Positions 15,567 through 61,394 of a stretch of 64,000 nucleotides of DNA are shown here, piece after piece (the stretch's first letter is position 1; each line of letters opens with the position of its first letter). The position numbers and the translations under genes were made by a program. The stretch is from Lonsdalea populi. Its GTDB lineage: Bacteria > Pseudomonadota > Gammaproteobacteria > Enterobacterales > Enterobacteriaceae. Below the pieces are notes generated by a model. That model ran no database searches. It had not been told where the DNA came from and saw nothing but the letters and a program-made list of their open reading frames with translations. Where the stretch lies: assembly GCF_015999465.1 (NCBI RefSeq), contig NZ_CP065534.1, forward strand, positions 1,922,001-1,986,000. Reading direction: 5' to 3'.

Positions 15567-15610
15567 TTTGTTACCTTTTTGTTGCATACTTCGGCTGACG
15601 ACAAAAACAA

Positions 15611-15634
15611 AAAACCCGCATCGAGGCGGGTTTT
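15611..15634 (-). terminator. Terminator after cspC
   Basis: AAAACCCGC / GCGGGTTTT, 9-bp stem with a 6-nt loop, 20 bases downstream of the cspC stop. The minus-strand 3' arm runs into a T-rich stretch (TTTTTGTTTTTGT). Confidence 0.85.
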
Positions 15635-15653
15635 ATTACGCAGAATGTGTAAA

Positions 15654-15863
15654 TTACAGTGCAGTCACGTTTACTGCTGAAGGACCTTTCTGACCATCCT
15701 GAATTTCAAACTCAACGTTCTGGCCTTCAGCCAGAGTTTTGAAGCCATTACCCTGAATTGCAGAGAAATGTACGAATACATCTTTGCTGCCGTCAGCCGG
15801 AGTAATGAAGCCAAAACCTTTAGACTCGTTGAACCACTTAACCTGACCTTTAATCTTTGCCAT
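15654..15863 (-). CDS. cspC: Cold-shock-like protein CspC
   Basis: 69 residues, differing from E. coli CspC at only a couple of positions (start [16 protein letters not shown], end [10 protein letters not shown]). RNP1 (KGFGFI) and RNP2 (VFVHF) are intact. It is a single-domain nucleic-acid chaperone affecting mRNA stability and rpoS expression in E. coli. It is preceded by yobF on the same strand, 22 bases away, and the two are a known operon. Confidence 0.98.
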
Positions 15864-15885
15864 TTCAATATTTCCTTTAAACGTT

Positions 15886-16020
15886 CTAGACCGCCCGAAA
15901 GCGTTGTACAGATAAACTTGAGTCGTTGCTGCTTGAGGCACCAAAGTAAGGATCGACAGAGAAGTGGTATTCAACGTGAACGTTAGTACTCAAGACTTCT
16001 TTACGGAAAATGCCATTCAT
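15886..16020 (-). CDS. yobF: Small protein YobF (44 aa)
   Basis: A short gene immediately upstream of cspC. It reads [20 protein letters not shown] and then [16 protein letters not shown] before ending at TAG. This aligns over its length with E. coli YobF (47 aa), which shares GIF.KEVLS, VEY.FS, PY.GAS and SN.S. YobF is a heat-shock-responsive small protein of unknown role in E. coli. The C-terminal few residues differ. Confidence 0.9.
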
Positions 16021-16486
16021 ATACAGAACTGAACCTCGTTTCATCCAAATGCGTTATCACATACTCTGTGATCCTTGGCAAGCCATTTTTTACCAATGCC
16101 CGGCACAACGCACAGATTCGTCTATTTTCTGCTTCATTCGCATATCTATTTCTAATACCTAGCATTATTAGCGCACAGTTTGATGACGAAAATGAATATG
16201 CGAGATAACCTCACCTTGGATAATATTATTATGGCACCCTAACGGCAGGTCGCCACCATCCTGATTAATTAAATTTTAATTATTGGTAAATGGCATGAAA
16301 TGTGATTGAACATTAAAATATCAGCGACTAGAAGCACTAAAAAATGCCTGGTCTTAAATACAACTTCCTCTCCTTCTTCTTCCATTACACGGTCATTTCA
16401 CCTTTGACAGAATCGATTCACATTAAAGCCGGCACCTTCGTATTTCGATAACGATACACAAGAAATCAGCATCAGTTGTACTGCTT
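16021..16486. other. AT-rich leader/intergenic DNA upstream of yobF-cspC
   Basis: About 465 bases with no gene I can support. The yobF side must hold the yobF-cspC promoter and 5' leader. At 16409-16422 lies AGAATCGATTCACA, a near copy of the Cra-like site before manX. The DNA is a synteny junction: in E. coli yebO would follow here. Confidence 0.5.
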
Positions 16487-28635: not shown

Positions 28636-28663
28636 AATAAAAAAGCCTCCGCACGGGAGGCTT
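28636..28663 (-). terminator. pheST attenuator terminator
   Basis: On the minus strand AAGCCTCC-CGTGC-GGAGGCTT followed by TTTT. The upstream sequence GGAGGCTTT, just past the pheM stop (28697-28704 region), can pair with the AAGCCTCC arm to form the competing antiterminator. Ribosome stalling on the Phe codons of pheM would then allow read-through. Confidence 0.93.
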
Positions 28664-28709
28664 AAGCGCTACTTTTCGTTTCTTTTTTTACGCGCAAAGC
28701 CTCCTGAAT

Positions 28710-28754
28710 TCAGGCGCTAAAGTAAAAAAAGAAACGGAATATAGCAGTTTTCAT
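28710..28754 (-). CDS. pheM: pheST leader peptide PheM
   Basis: A 14-codon gene reading [14 protein letters not shown] with five Phe codons in an eight-residue stretch. E. coli PheM is [14 protein letters not shown], so the match is nearly complete. It is the sensor of charged tRNA-Phe in the attenuation control of pheST. Confidence 0.96.
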   Translation of the reverse strand: [14 protein letters not shown]

Positions 28755-28861
28755 ACTTGCGTTACCTTGTCGTTATCAATACCTGAGGGGTTAAACGCTA
28801 CGATCAAACATCTAAGATTTTATGACGAATGACTGGCGCGTCTTACCAGCCCAAAAATCAA

Positions 28862-56703: not shown

Positions 56704-56895
56704 ATGTTCGCATTGGTGATTTTTGTCTGCTATTTGGGCGGGAGTTGTGAAGACCTGGTTGCGGGCGTTTATGAGACAGAAACACAATGTCTGAAAACCA
56801 TGAGTGAGCAACGTATTCGAAATGGTGGATGCTATCCCATTGAAGATTTTATCGACGGGTTCTGGCACCCGGCAAAAGAGTATCGAGATATGTAA
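56704..56895 (+). CDS. yebW: DUF1482 small protein YebW
   Basis: 63 residues, equal to E. coli YebW. MFALVIFVCYLGGSCEDLV and NGGCYPIEDFIDGFWHPAKEY are the conserved parts, with four cysteines. Function unknown. GAGGAAG precedes the ATG. yebV, between rsmF and yebW in E. coli, is absent. Confidence 0.93.
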   Translation: MFALVIFVCYLGGSCEDLVAGVYETETQCLKTMSEQRIRNGGCYPIEDFIDGFWHPAKEYRDM

Positions 56896-57077: not shown

Positions 57078-57947
57078 TCAAGCATTACGGGTGATCGTGA
57101 GCAGTACCAGCCCTACTGGCGAAACTTCATCCGCGCCGCACTGAAACTGAGCAGCGTTGCCGGTAACGGAGATCTTCTTCCCCGGCAGCAGAGAAACGTC
57201 ATAGATGTCGTTTCTGCCGTCTATGTCTAGCAGCCAGCGTCCGTTCCCCAGGCAGGACACGCCGGTGTCCACCAGCCATGACGCCGTAGTCCCTTCCACG
57301 AGGAGAGGTGAATGCACGCCAGCAGGTAAGAATGCGTTATCCGCTTTCCAGTCACATGACTCCTGCAATTTACCGGCCTTGAGCGTCTTCCGCGGCACCA
57401 GAACGGTATCTCCCGTGTCGTTTGCATCGTGATGTCCTATATGGTGGGGAGATCCTTTACCTATCGCCAACCACTCCAGCGATACCCCAGTATCCAGCGC
57501 GCACGCCACCACAACGTCACCCGGAAAGAAATCACGACGGATCCAGGTGCTGATAGTGCCTGGCGCAATATCCAGCAGCTCACCGAGCTCTTTTTGCGTG
57601 CTAAAGCCATAGGCATCAAGCATACGCCGTAACACCGCTCGGCCGCCTGAAGCCAAAATCTGATCATAGAGCGCTTTGCCCTTAAGGTTCACGTCTTGAT
57701 GCAGCATCTCAGGCGTATCGATAAATTCGCCGGTCACCAACCACCCCGCATCGACGCCATTATCAAGCGCGCATTTGAGGATAATATTGCCGGGGATACT
57801 GCCTCGCTGAACCCAATTGCTAATGGTATTTGCCGGAATGCCTGTTGCTTCGCTCAATTCCTTTTGTGTTTTTACCCCATAGCTTGACAGGATTCGCCCC
57901 AGCATAGACACCGTTGCTGTGGTATTACTTTCTCTGTTCAAAAACAC
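57078..57947 (-). CDS. CI-type repressor with two tandem helix-turn-helix domains
   Basis: 289 residues. Two copies of the Bacteriophage-CI HTH domain follow each other: residues ~12-80 (MLGRILSSYGVKTQKELSEA, NTISNWVQRGSIPG, GVDAGWLVTGE) and ~103-167 (RRMLDAYGFSTQKELGELLD, GTISTWIRRDFFPG, GVSLEWLAIGKG). The C-terminal ~85 residues (LVDTGVSCLGNGRWLLDIDG, DVSLLPGKKISVTG, VGLVLLTI) resemble the S24/LexA C-terminal fold, but I do not see a clear Ser-Lys protease pair or Ala-Gly cleavage site. The start is uncertain: GTG 57945-57947, TTG two codons on, or ATG at residue 15. Phage 186 CI is a member of the same HTH family. Target unknown. Confidence 0.8.
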   Translation of the reverse strand: MFLNRESNTTATVSMLGRILSSYGVKTQKELSEATGIPANTISNWVQRGSIPGNIILKCALDNGVDAGWLVTGEFIDTPEMLHQDVNLKGKALYDQILASGGRAVLRRMLDAYGFSTQKELGELLDIAPGTISTWIRRDFFPGDVVVACALDTGVSLEWLAIGKGSPHHIGHHDANDTGDTVLVPRKTLKAGKLQESCDWKADNAFLPAGVHSPLLVEGTTASWLVDTGVSCLGNGRWLLDIDGRNDIYDVSLLPGKKISVTGNAAQFQCGADEVSPVGLVLLTITRNA

Positions 57948-58351
57948 CTCTTGAGCATGGAAATAGATGCGTTGTATGTCTTAACCGCCCTAAAAACCGT
58001 CACCGCTGCAATTGTCGAAGAAAAATCATGCGGCGTCTGATGATATTACAATTTTATCCCTTCCCAGCATGAAAATAATGAGGCCTTTTATCCAAAATTC
58101 CAGTGCAAAGGCTCAGTTAACTTACTTACTAATTGAAAAAATTGCCGCATTCGACCGCAAACCCGGCTTTTCAAGCTTCACAAGGATAAACGATGTAACG
58201 ATTCATTTTTAATCAATGTGTTATAATCATAGATCCCGTCTTTAGCTGTAAGAAGCCGCCTCTGAAACCCCGTGGACAGTTATGGGTTGACGAATATAGC
58301 ATTCTATAAAATACTGTATATAAATACAGTCATAAAAACAGGCAGACTATT
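57948..58351. promoter_or_regulatory. Divergent region between the CI-type repressor and the SOS-boxed gene
   Basis: 404 bases, AT-rich. It must hold the repressor promoter; a -35-like TTGACG lies at 58287-58292 and a LexA box at 58314-58329 in front of the rightward gene. A 66-codon TTG-started frame at 58012-58212 has no homologue I know and is not called. Confidence 0.5.
58314..58329 (+). promoter_or_regulatory. Near-consensus LexA (SOS) box
   Basis: CTGTATATAAATACAG; with flanks TACTGTATATAAATACAGTC, differing from the 20-base LexA consensus TACTGTATATATATACAGTA at only two positions. It ends 22 bases before the GTG of the 73-aa gene. Confidence 0.92.
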
Positions 58352-58573
58352 GTGGAACATCTCAAAAACCAAGAATTGACACTGGCCAGAATCAGGCTGA
58401 TTGCGGATATGACGTTAATATCTCAAATCCGTCCTGACGAGATGCAAGCAGCGATATCGTTGATTGCCGATCTGGCTCATGGTGCGGTAGAAACGGAAGA
58501 CTTCCAACAGGCGCTACAGGATAGCGGCGACATTCAATGGTTCAAAGCCTGGTTCGAGCAGCACTCCATTTAG
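58352..58573 (+). CDS. Unknown 73-aa protein, predicted LexA-controlled
   Basis: 73 residues from GTG 58352 with an AGG-containing site nine bases upstream. Starts MEHLKNQELTLARIRLIADM and ends FKAWFEQHSI; predicted helical, acidic, no Cys, no membrane segment. I do not recognise a family; it is not DinI, YebG, TisB or SymE. The strong SOS box just upstream and the divergent CI-type repressor next door suggest a phage-derived DNA-damage switch, possibly an anti-repressor like Tum of phage 186. That role is inference. Confidence 0.7.
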   Translation: MEHLKNQELTLARIRLIADMTLISQIRPDEMQAAISLIADLAHGAVETEDFQQALQDSGDIQWFKAWFEQHSI

Positions 58574-58770
58574 ACAAGATCCCCCACGGCATCCCTTAAT
58601 GGCTGAATGTTGCAGACAAGGTATAATCTTGGTCGACTACATTCACTTGCCGCCATTTACGACATTTATCATCATCGACGTAGAGGTTAATGAATCTATT
58701 TTCTTTATACGACCCATTAAAAATAGTTCCATTTCTACTTGATGTCTATTGACCAGATGACGATTCCTAC

Positions 58771-58800
58771 TAAAGGCTATTAAAGGCTATTAAAGGCTAT
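58771..58800. repeat. Three direct copies of a 10-bp unit
   Basis: TAAAGGCTAT occurs three times head to tail without mismatch, followed by a degenerate TTGGG. It may be a slippage product or an operator array. Confidence 0.9.
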
Positions 58801-58906
58801 TTGGGATTCTCTGGGTTGGTCATTTGATGAAAAACTGACACTCCCGCCTCATTACCTCTATTGGTGATATTCCGTTTTTCACCTAAAAAAACAGGGAATT
58901 CACGCA

Positions 58907-59107
58907 ATGCGCAATGTTATCAGAAGCATAAGAAATGGGAGTATTGATATTTCATCAACCCCTCCCCTTTTATTTCTCAAACCCTCTGAAAAAAACTTCC
59001 GCTCATTAAACCGGATAAAAAAACACCTTTTTTATTGTCTTATATTCATGCTTATCCCGCTGATCATATTACCAATCCCTGTACTGAAAACATTCACCAA
59101 GCAGTAG
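58907..59107 (+). CDS. Possible small membrane protein (66 aa), unknown
   Basis: ATG start with AGGGAA nine bases upstream. A basic N-terminal half (RNVIRSIRNGS, SEKNFRSLNRIKKH) is followed by one hydrophobic helix LFYCLIFMLIPLIILPIPVL and a short polar tail. No homologue recognised. Could be chance in AT-rich DNA. Confidence 0.3.
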   Translation: MRNVIRSIRNGSIDISSTPPLLFLKPSEKNFRSLNRIKKHLFYCLIFMLIPLIILPIPVLKTFTKQ

Positions 59108-59424
59108 CTGATAATATAATTTCGAACCAGAGCATGGCAAAAATGAATATAAAGTAGCTACACACCTATTTAATTTTAGGAAATAATTGATACCGTGCGC
59201 GCCTTTATCACATGATAACTTCACATATTGAAGTTCCATTGCTTATCTTACGGGGTCAATAGTGGTGCGATATCATATCCCGCAGGTGTGATGCTATTAT
59301 GCGATAAAGAAATGAGGACCAGGAAAAAGCTTGGAGCAGCAGGATAAACAATACCTGCACCGGTTCTCCAGCGTCTGGTTCCCGGCCACCTCCACCCTGG
59401 CGCTCAAGACAATACTGCTGAGGT

Positions 59425-60768
59425 TCAATGAATGAAAGCGACGGAACGATGACGACAGACAAACTGACCTTTCGCCAAAATCATCAAGGCCGTCAGAAAA
59501 GCCGGTAGTGCCAGAACAGCAAACATCACACCGAAGCTCCATTCCATGCCCAGCACCTGTGCACCGGCAAATGCGCTTATGATGGCGCCCATCCGCCCAA
59601 CGCCGTGCATCCATCCCGAACCAGTCGCACGCGCGATCGTCGGATAGAAACGTGCGGAAAGCGCATTCATGCCGGTATTCGCGCCGTTAAGGCAAAAACC
59701 ACTGAACGATGCCAGCAAAGCCAGTAAAACAAAATAGGATTCCGACAGCCCGATCAGCGCCGTCGCCACACCGCCCACCGCATAGATAACGCCAAGGGCC
59801 AGATGCGGATTGATACGATCCATTAGCCAACCGGCGAACAGCGAGCCGAAAGCGCCGCCGAACTGATACAAAGCGGTGATGACCGTCGCCTGAGTGACCG
59901 TCATCCCCGCCTCTTTGATCACAGTAGGTAGCCAACTGCCTAACAAGTACACCATAAACAACCCGAGGAAATAGCCGCCCCACAGCATGAAACTGCCAAA
60001 ACGGTACTCTTTAGACAGCACTAACCGCATGGCGAACAACGCTTTTTTGTTTTCAGCAGGCATAGCGAACCGAGTGCCGAGTTGGCTAACACCCGGCGCA
60101 ATTTTGTCGACGATGCGGTGAATGCGTTCAGAATTCGCGCGTTTGGTCACCAGAAATCTGACGGACTCAGGCAGTTTGACCACCAAAAACGGCAGCAGCA
60201 GCAGCGGCAAAATGCCTCCCATGATAAGAACCGTATGCCAGCCCCACTTTGGGATCAGCCAGGAAGCGGCAAACCCACCCGCCGCCGCGCCCACGCTAAA
60301 GCCGCAAAACACGATGGTGATGATAAACGAGCGTTTTTTTTCCGGCGCATATTCCGCAACCAGCGTTCCTACGTTGGGCATAGCGGCCCCCAGCCCCAGC
60401 CCGGTCAGGAAGCGGAAAATTACCAGGTGCTGTACATTTTGGGAGAACGCTGCTAACAGCGTCCATAAGCCGAATAGGAATACGCTGCTGATGATGACCA
60501 CTTTGCGTCCACGCCAGTCGGCCAGAGGTCCAGAAATCATGGCCCCCAGAGCCAGCCCCACCAATGCCGCGCTGATGACAATTGCCAGCTCAGCGTTGCC
60601 AATTCCCCACGCTGCTTTGAGCGAAGGACCGATAAAGCCCATGATGGCGATATCCATACCGTCCAATGCAATAATGCAGAATGAAAGGATGATAATCAGC
60701 TTTTGATAGGCGCCGAGGGGGCGTTCGTTAATGAGCTGGCGAACGTCTAAGGGGGTGGAACCTGTCAC
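59425..60768 (-). CDS. MFS transporter, aromatic acid:H+ symporter (AAHS) type
   Basis: 447 residues from GTG 60766-60768 with GGAG seven bases upstream. Twelve helices; helix 1 has the DGMD motif (IIALDGMDIAIMGFIGPSL) and the loop after helix 2 GPLADWRGRK, both typical of the PcaK/MucK/MhpT group that imports benzoate-like acids. The last ~15 residues (KGQFVCRHRSVAFIH) are unlike the family and may be a replaced tail. No aromatic catabolic genes are nearby, so the substrate is unknown. Confidence 0.87.
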   Translation of the reverse strand: MTGSTPLDVRQLINERPLGAYQKLIIILSFCIIALDGMDIAIMGFIGPSLKAAWGIGNAELAIVISAALVGLALGAMISGPLADWRGRKVVIISSVFLFGLWTLLAAFSQNVQHLVIFRFLTGLGLGAAMPNVGTLVAEYAPEKKRSFIITIVFCGFSVGAAAGGFAASWLIPKWGWHTVLIMGGILPLLLLPFLVVKLPESVRFLVTKRANSERIHRIVDKIAPGVSQLGTRFAMPAENKKALFAMRLVLSKEYRFGSFMLWGGYFLGLFMVYLLGSWLPTVIKEAGMTVTQATVITALYQFGGAFGSLFAGWLMDRINPHLALGVIYAVGGVATALIGLSESYFVLLALLASFSGFCLNGANTGMNALSARFYPTIARATGSGWMHGVGRMGAIISAFAGAQVLGMEWSFGVMFAVLALPAFLTALMILAKGQFVCRHRSVAFIH

Positions 60769-61184
60769 GCTTAGTCTCCAATAACTCTTCTTCGGGCTGT
60801 TAACCTGGGCTTACACTGTAAACAAATATTTCCGACAGTAAAACAGCCCGACCATAATAAATTTGCTGTCCAGACGGATTCCGTGACGTAGCGCGCAGAT
60901 GATATCCAACGCGCTCCGCCAATGAAAGCACCAAACCAATACCTGCTCTTTTTAGACCCAAGCAGAGAAAAACTCATAATGTGAATTATTTAAGTCACAA
61001 CACCGAGTTACTCTTCACGAGGGGTAAGTAACTTTATTTCTTAAAAACAATATATTACATATAATTCACCGAAAAATACGAAGATATGAATTTATTTTTT
61101 TCGAAATTTATTTGCAAATTCAAACGGAAAATTTCACCATAAAAGATATGTTGAATAGATGAATCTGTTTAAGGAGATACCACC
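60769..61184. other. AT-rich region between the MFS gene and ogr
   Basis: 416 bases; strongly A/T-rich from 60985 to 61165. It should hold the promoters of both divergent genes. No site or gene named with confidence. Confidence 0.5.
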
Positions 61185-61394
61185 ATGATGCATTGCCCTT
61201 TATGCCACCATGCCGCCCATGCGCGTTCCAGCCGATATCTGTCGGATGGCGCCAAGGAGCGCTACCACCAATGTACCAACGTCAATTGCGGGCATACATT
61301 CGTTACACTGGAAGCCGTCACCCGTTCGATCATGGTGCCAGGCAAAGTCGACCCCGTAGAGGCCCCCGCCGGTAACCCGCCTCCGCCGCCCTAA
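61185..61394 (+). CDS. ogr: Ogr/Delta-like zinc-finger late activator (P2-type)
   Basis: 69 residues. MHCPLCHHAAHARSSRYLSD, KERYHQCTNVNCGHTFVTLE: the four zinc cysteines (CPLC ... CTNVNC) and most of the sequence match phage P2 Ogr, which turns on P2 late genes. The C-terminus ends in a proline run (NPPPPP). AAGGAGATACCACC precedes the ATG. No other P2 structural or replication gene is in the window, so it is an orphan from a P2-like prophage. Confidence 0.9.
   Translation: MMHCPLCHHAAHARSSRYLSDGAKERYHQCTNVNCGHTFVTLEAVTRSIMVPGKVDPVEAPAGNPPPPP

Follow-up and report, generated by a model that had tools for sequence, protein, structure and literature searches.

What kind of switch is formed by a CI-type repressor gene and a small LexA-boxed gene that face each other on the genome of Lonsdalea populi, a bacterium of tree bark, and from what has it descended? 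The two genes lie in a 64-kb window (the whole stretch of DNA that was analysed, and to which all positions refer unless a contig is named) of the genome of strain N-5-1, a single contig of 3,859,707 bases. We consider it likely that the locus is a reduced SOS relay of the 186/PSP3 type, in which LexA would repress tumA, TumA would inhibit CI and CI would repress ogr, and that this relay has outlived a P2/186-type prophage of the tailocin kind; the inhibition of CI by TumA and the repression of ogr by CI are steps that we infer from homology. A preliminary description of the locus had suggested that it could be a compact, domesticated version of the 186-type switch with a different antirepressor. 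The first half of this proposal agrees with what we found, namely a LexA-boxed gene facing a repressor without a protease match. The second half has to be given up, the small protein being, as judged from its sequence, a homologue of Tum's own antirepressor half.

The repressor (57078–57947, minus strand) is 289 residues long and starts with GTG. A Pfam profile search placed PF07022 on two stretches of it and PF16452 on one: the second helix-turn-helix domain (residues 104–167; 57447–57638, minus strand) is the higher-scoring head and the best PF07022 stretch, and the 186-type CI C-terminal domain (residues 184–280; 57108–57398, minus strand) matches PF16452 with an E value of 3.1e-19. Peptidase_S24 is absent from the 22 Pfam families that reached E ≤ 1 with the repressor. 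The preliminary description, which had placed the repressor frame and the small frame (58352–58573, plus strand) correctly, had thus rightly noticed two tandem CI helix-turn-helix domains and no Ser–Lys protease pair. On these domain criteria (heads and C-terminal domain present, no S24 match), the protein can be classed as a predicted 186/PSP3-type CI. The CI of phage PSP3 has the same three-domain layout and is 47% identical to it over 288 aligned positions, so that the double head is not peculiar to the window, and the idea that it might represent a new design falls. The protein also matches by sequence the solved structures of 186 CI (2fjr, 2fkd and 7jvt). CI relatives occur in 117 of the 343 genomes of the family; among the matches listed, at least 38, in at least 36 of these genomes, span both heads (query start ≤15 and end ≥283, the CI of L. 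iberica, which is in two pieces, being excluded).

The 73-residue protein had been described as belonging to no known family. A profile search assigned it to phrog_1993 (E 4.6e-17), the PHROG of PSP3 TumA, which it also matches directly (38% over 50 positions). A 16-row profile, built from the window protein and 15 other soft-rot-group rows with phage records left out, gave 41.4 bits with PSP3 TumA and 17.0 bits with 186 Tum, compared to a control ceiling of 7.1 bits among 2,000 shuffled Tum sequences and 911 ORF fragments (the two true-gene frames excepted). When PSP3 was included in the profile, the match spanned residues 7–50 of 186 Tum. The link to 186 is a remote one, since PSP3 TumA, used as the sole tblastn query, fails to retrieve 186 at E 0.01; with solved structures, the best E value obtained with the TumA profile was 0.5. 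According to PMC3121763, Tum consists of a LexA-controlled antirepressor part fused to a DinI part, the two being split in PSP3, where antirepressor activity is assigned to the upstream gene via a personal communication cited there; PMC7708051 presents 186 Tum as an anti-CI factor expressed from the LexA-regulated p95 promoter. By its sequence, the 73-residue protein is homologous to the N-terminal antirepressor half of Tum. No tblastn match to PSP3 TumB or to the C-terminal part of 186 Tum was found in the window and 15 locus sets at E ≤ 1, and because no DinI half was found we call the product TumA-like rather than Tum, and the gene (58352–58573, plus strand, GTG start) tumA. That it encodes an antirepressor of a new family, as first supposed, could draw on the small number of relatives found by single-sequence search (13 proteins) and on the failure of PSP3 TumA to retrieve 186 by tblastn; the phrog_1993 assignment, the direct match to PSP3 TumA and the profile match to 186 Tum contradict it, and we give it hardly any credence.

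TumA relatives (E ≤ 0.001) occur in 62 of the 343 family genomes and tend to lie close to CI. Among the matches listed, which comprise 55 TumA places with E < 1e-9 and 63 CI places, a CI homologue lies within 12 kb of 51 of the 55 TumA places, and TumA (E < 1e-9) lies within 12 kb of 34 of the 40 strongest CI places.

The LexA box ahead of tumA, TACTGTATATAAATACAGTC (58312–58331, plus strand), departs from the 20-base consensus at two positions, as had been noted; the tumA start codon begins 21 bases after its last base, instead of the 22 previously given. A consensus scan returned it as the sole site with at most three mismatches in the window, and none of 100 shuffled sequences contained one. 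At the same threshold, the whole L. populi genome holds two sites, that of tumA and one in a resident prophage, and the genomes of the four other Lonsdalea strains hold 1, 1, 2 and 2, the tumA site always among them; the reversed consensus used as a control gave none in any of the five genomes. All 12 TumA-bearing loci have a LexA-like box ahead of tumA (13 loci were scanned, some from the same genome; L040 of genome G032, with CI and no TumA, is outside the 12). The presumed −35 box, TTGACG (58287–58292, plus strand), lies 19 bp before the LexA box, and a −35/LexA layout with a spacing of 17 or 19 was present in all 15 locus sets examined. The annotated p95 promoter of phage 186 is similar, with a LexA site that begins at the −10 hexamer. 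Box and −35 layout together place tumA under a predicted LexA-controlled promoter.

The spacer between CI and tumA (57948–58351, assigned to neither strand) contains conserved non-coding blocks: 275 of 406 columns are invariant in the alignment of the five Lonsdalea genomes, including uninterrupted runs that measure 24, 21, 20 and 19 bp. The −35 box of tumA sits within the 21-bp run, and the 24-, 20- and 19-bp blocks lie between CI and the tumA promoter. On the 3′ side of tumA, a short direct repeat (58770–58802) is visible by eye as about three copies of ttaaaggcta. A near-consensus LexA box with two mismatches also occurs in the resident P2-like prophage of L. populi (G000:C1:3253234–3253253, i.e. 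L089:9334–9353); the small frame that follows this box gives a weak match of 9.3 bits to the TumA profile, which is not significant.

The surroundings of the pair point to its origin. The five Lonsdalea genomes compared here (L. populi, G000, and G001–G004, which comprise two strains of L. quercina, L. britannica and L. iberica) show the gene order rsmF, yebW, CI, TumA, a smrA-like gene (absent in the window), a gene for an MFS transporter and Ogr, in which rsmF, yebW and smrA are presumed names. CI and TumA are adjacent in all five. In the window, the yebW-like gene (DUF1482; 56704–56895, plus strand; PF07358) forms the left flank and, being the same neighbour in related loci, marks a shared chromosomal site; the MFS transporter gene (59425–60768, minus strand; PF07690) is cargo, with a homologue inside the tail cluster in G018, G308 and G235. 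The smrA-like gene (phrog_8434) is what the window lacks in its interval 58574–60768; in relatives, it and the MFS gene are cargo of the tail cluster. The preliminary description had overlooked the gene that lies 2.6 kb beyond tumA (61185–61394, plus strand) and, with it, the tailocin or prophage origin of the site. The 69-residue product has a predicted Ogr_Delta zinc-finger domain (PF04606, 78.7 bits for a cut-off of 26.3; phrog_603), and the gene, ogr, which would encode an Ogr/Delta-type late activator, has an equivalent in 5 of 5 Lonsdalea genomes. Elsewhere in the window, RNA families are ordinary host ones, a cspA thermoregulator and a Phe leader (15608–16037 and 28636–28759).

Six related loci beside yebW, from Dickeya (G308, G235 and G125), Prodigiosinella (G085 and G211) and a relative from another genus (G018), contain after yebW a CI gene, remnants of a replication region (gene A and a DksA-like finger), TumA, P2-type tail genes and Ogr; five of them could be read through to Ogr, and the contig of G125 stops before sheath and Ogr. 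By contrast, none of the 13 genes of a tail/lysis panel was found at the five Lonsdalea sites (E ≤ 1e-5), where the ORFs of the G018 tail cluster had no match either (E ≤ 1e-3). In G018, G308, G235, G085 and G211 the tail cluster includes a smrA-like gene, accompanied in the first three by an MFS gene, and the order of the two in these three is inverted relative to Lonsdalea. In Pectobacterium brasiliense, an early region with Apl and CII adjoins yebW. Taken together, the loci beside the one host gene yebW form a series: Pectobacterium has a prophage-like early region, Dickeya and Prodigiosinella have tail clusters, and Lonsdalea has the regulators alone. We class the Lonsdalea locus not as a tailocin but as a probable derivative of the same kind of locus as the P2-type tailocins of the P2D1 kind. 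At other chromosomal sites, CI adjoins TumA with tail genes present in G189, and a stretch of G020 (L039:6409–10100) contains CI, TumA, tail X, lysozyme, R and Ogr, with no match to sheath or tube in the stretch read; this G020 module is possibly one for SOS-triggered lysis without a tail.

The tail genes do not appear to have moved elsewhere in these genomes: the tubes found in G001–G003 and at G004:C33 belong, by ORF reading, to Mu-like clusters, such Mu-like tail clusters being seen in four Lonsdalea genomes (L084–L087), and the other tube of L. populi belongs to a distinct P2-like prophage, which has an Ogr and a CI of its own. This bears on a further proposal, that P2-like prophages elsewhere in the cell respond in trans to the relay. 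Antirepressors of Salmonella that act on non-cognate repressors (described in PMC3121763) provide a precedent, the P2-like prophage of L. populi carries perfect Ogr-type dyads, and in L. britannica a tube and an Ogr gene share a contig (G004:C29). However, the L. populi prophage and the L. britannica contig each have an Ogr gene of their own, and since the single tube found in each of G001, G002 and G003 lies in a Mu-like cluster, the relay would have no P2-like target in these three genomes. We regard such cross-talk as very unlikely.

Is the trio of regulators maintained, or is it simply what deletion has not yet reached? Pairwise dN/dS values among the Lonsdalea genomes are 0.042–0.100 for CI (6 pairs, L. 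iberica being left out because its CI frame is broken), 0.020–0.111 for Ogr and 0.114–0.403 for TumA (10 pairs each), as compared to 0.048–0.102 for rsmF, 0.032–0.140 for yebW and 0.025–0.060 for the MFS gene (10 pairs each). An excess of synonymous changes was found in the four pairs tested (p 6.5e-6 and 2.5e-3 for TumA, 5.8e-13 for Ogr and 5e-53 for CI, these values being computed on related sequences with rounded counts). Of the three genes, TumA shows the weakest constraint, which we count against the relay reading. In L. iberica, CI (L044:6619–7487) is split by a frame shift into two overlapping frames, TumA and Ogr being intact; the break is either genuine decay or an assembly error. CI, TumA and Ogr are under purifying selection in Lonsdalea, the CI of L. 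iberica being broken, and a prophage switch has thus been retained under selection after its surroundings were lost. Among the observations that the preliminary description had named as speaking against it were the two genes not being neighbours in any other genome and a small frame free of purifying selection; neither was made, because CI and TumA are neighbours in all five Lonsdalea genomes and the small frame is constrained.

These values also weigh on two other accounts of why the trio is there. A decaying relic, whose relay controls only itself, would explain the absence of tail genes from the site, our failure to find an Ogr target (see below) and the broken CI of L. iberica. Yet the constraint on CI and Ogr equals that on the flanking rsmF (0.048–0.102) despite a synonymous divergence of up to about 0.9, and the LexA box, the promoter and the element upstream of ogr are conserved as well, so that we consider a relic rather unlikely. 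Alternatively, CI could have been kept as an immunity device that represses incoming 186/PSP3-like phages, with TumA and Ogr as passengers, as the strong constraint on CI and the occurrence of its relatives in 117 of 343 family genomes might suggest. A passenger Ogr is difficult to reconcile with a constraint equal to that of CI, and an antirepressor induced by the SOS response would reduce immunity; we hold this account to be improbable.

If the relay reading is correct, CI should be connected to ogr. In the alignment of the region upstream of ogr, the five Lonsdalea genomes agree at 68 of 168 columns, and the only 11-bp run outside the ribosome-binding region is TTTGCAAATTC (61111–61121, plus strand). 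This element precedes ogr unchanged in all ten loci compared (five from Lonsdalea, G018, and two each from Dickeya and Prodigiosinella) and constitutes, in Prodigiosinella, one arm of a 15-bp inverted repeat. The sequence upstream of PSP3 ogr contains TTGCAAATGCAAA, and TTTTGCAAATGCAAA is found between CI and the early genes in G308 and G235. In phage 186, gene B, the Ogr homologue, is transcribed from pB, which has two CI sites and is annotated as CI-repressed. TTTGCAAATTC fits a candidate CI operator that overlies the promoter of ogr; alternatively, it may be a conserved −35 region, or serve as both. The presumed link between CI and ogr rests on this one conserved element. No word of seven or more bases is conserved both in the CI–tumA spacer and upstream of ogr in the five Lonsdalea genomes, so that the supposed operator at ogr has no counterpart beside CI.

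We then considered what Ogr might activate. In the relatives, the Ogr box is close to TTGTGYCA-N8-MCAH: boxes precede X in G308, G235, G125, G020, G189 and G028 and sheath in G235, and near-matches precede sheath in G018, G308, G085 and G211; the pattern was not found before X in G018, G085 and G211. The five Lonsdalea genomes contain 0–3 strict boxes each, versus 1–4 in the reversed control, and 30–38 perfect dyads each, versus 65–78 in the reversed control; no Ogr target was found in Lonsdalea among the strict boxes, the perfect dyads and the shared sites that were read. Several individual sites were set aside. A TGT-N12-ACA motif stands before the MFS gene in all five Lonsdalea and in G018, but in the window 29–48 bp separate it from the start codon of that gene, and by the distance rule for Ogr sites we rejected it as too close. 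The strict site common to four Lonsdalea genomes is inside a permease-like gene, and a second one, confined to L. britannica and L. iberica, has a secretion-protein gene on one side and a multi-copy sequence on the other and was not taken for a target. Of the species-shared perfect TTGT-N12-ACAA motifs, 15 stretches were read among the sites listed (G003, G004 and part of G000) and were mostly inside genes; pairs upstream of pfkA-like and PTS-like genes (named by ORF reading) had no other support.

The relay reading has thus three points counted against it besides the weaker constraint on TumA: Lonsdalea is without a found Ogr target, the CI of L. iberica is broken and no CI-operator word is shared. 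Serratia (NucC) and Pectobacterium (RdgA/RdgB) use regulators of phage type to couple host genes to DNA damage. We advance tentatively, as a possibility that is less likely than not, the idea that the complete SOS relay of LexA, TumA, CI and Ogr has escaped from its phage and come to govern, in Lonsdalea, one or a few host promoters; if it is true, a phage late-gene switch has been turned into a host DNA-damage regulator.

Taken as a reduced phage relay, the locus would work as follows. A prophage or tailocin-type locus beside yebW would have lost, in Lonsdalea, its replication, lysis and tail genes and kept the three genes of the induction relay. LexA, to judge from the box and the promoter layout, would repress tumA; upon DNA damage, LexA would be cleaved and TumA made. 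TumA would then bind the double-headed CI and stop it from binding DNA, as established for 186 Tum and reported for PSP3 TumA, and CI would no longer repress ogr, as annotated for pB of 186. Finally, Ogr would activate promoters with an Ogr box, which in Dickeya and Prodigiosinella are presumably those of the tail operons. The CI–TumA–Ogr trio is likely to be the switch of P2D1-type tailocins.

How does this locus compare with known systems? The switch of the Eganvirus PSP3 (CI, TumA, TumB and Ogr) is alike in its double-headed CI, its separate TumA and its Ogr homologue; PSP3, however, is a whole phage with TumB (DinI) after TumA, whereas the window has neither TumB nor a phage body. Phage 186 shares a CI with PF16452-type relatives in solved structures, a LexA-controlled Tum and CI sites at the B promoter, but its CI is shorter (a 579-bp gene) with one matched head, and its Tum is fused to a DinI half. 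The Dickeya tailocin P2D1 (dickeyocin) has a P2-type tail cluster, and the tail clusters beside yebW in Dickeya and Prodigiosinella come with CI, TumA and Ogr, whereas the Lonsdalea site is devoid of tail genes; the Dickeya clusters considered here are probably of the P2D1 kind. The main text of PMC10719855 contains no occurrence of repressor, ogr, LexA or Tum, and as of 2025 the regulators of P2D1 "remain to be elucidated" according to PMC12297226, so that the trio would supply three candidate regulators for it. In the open-access literature, most subscription papers being outside its scope, we found no earlier description of a Lonsdalea tailocin or of a CI/TumA/Ogr tailocin switch. The parts are individually known, and CI and Ogr at a tailocin locus have already been described in Xenorhabdus: at the xenorhabdicin locus, PMC13280938 counts the CI repressor, OgrK and DinI among the conserved genes, in passages that do not mention TumA, and there, unlike in Lonsdalea, the tail genes are present.
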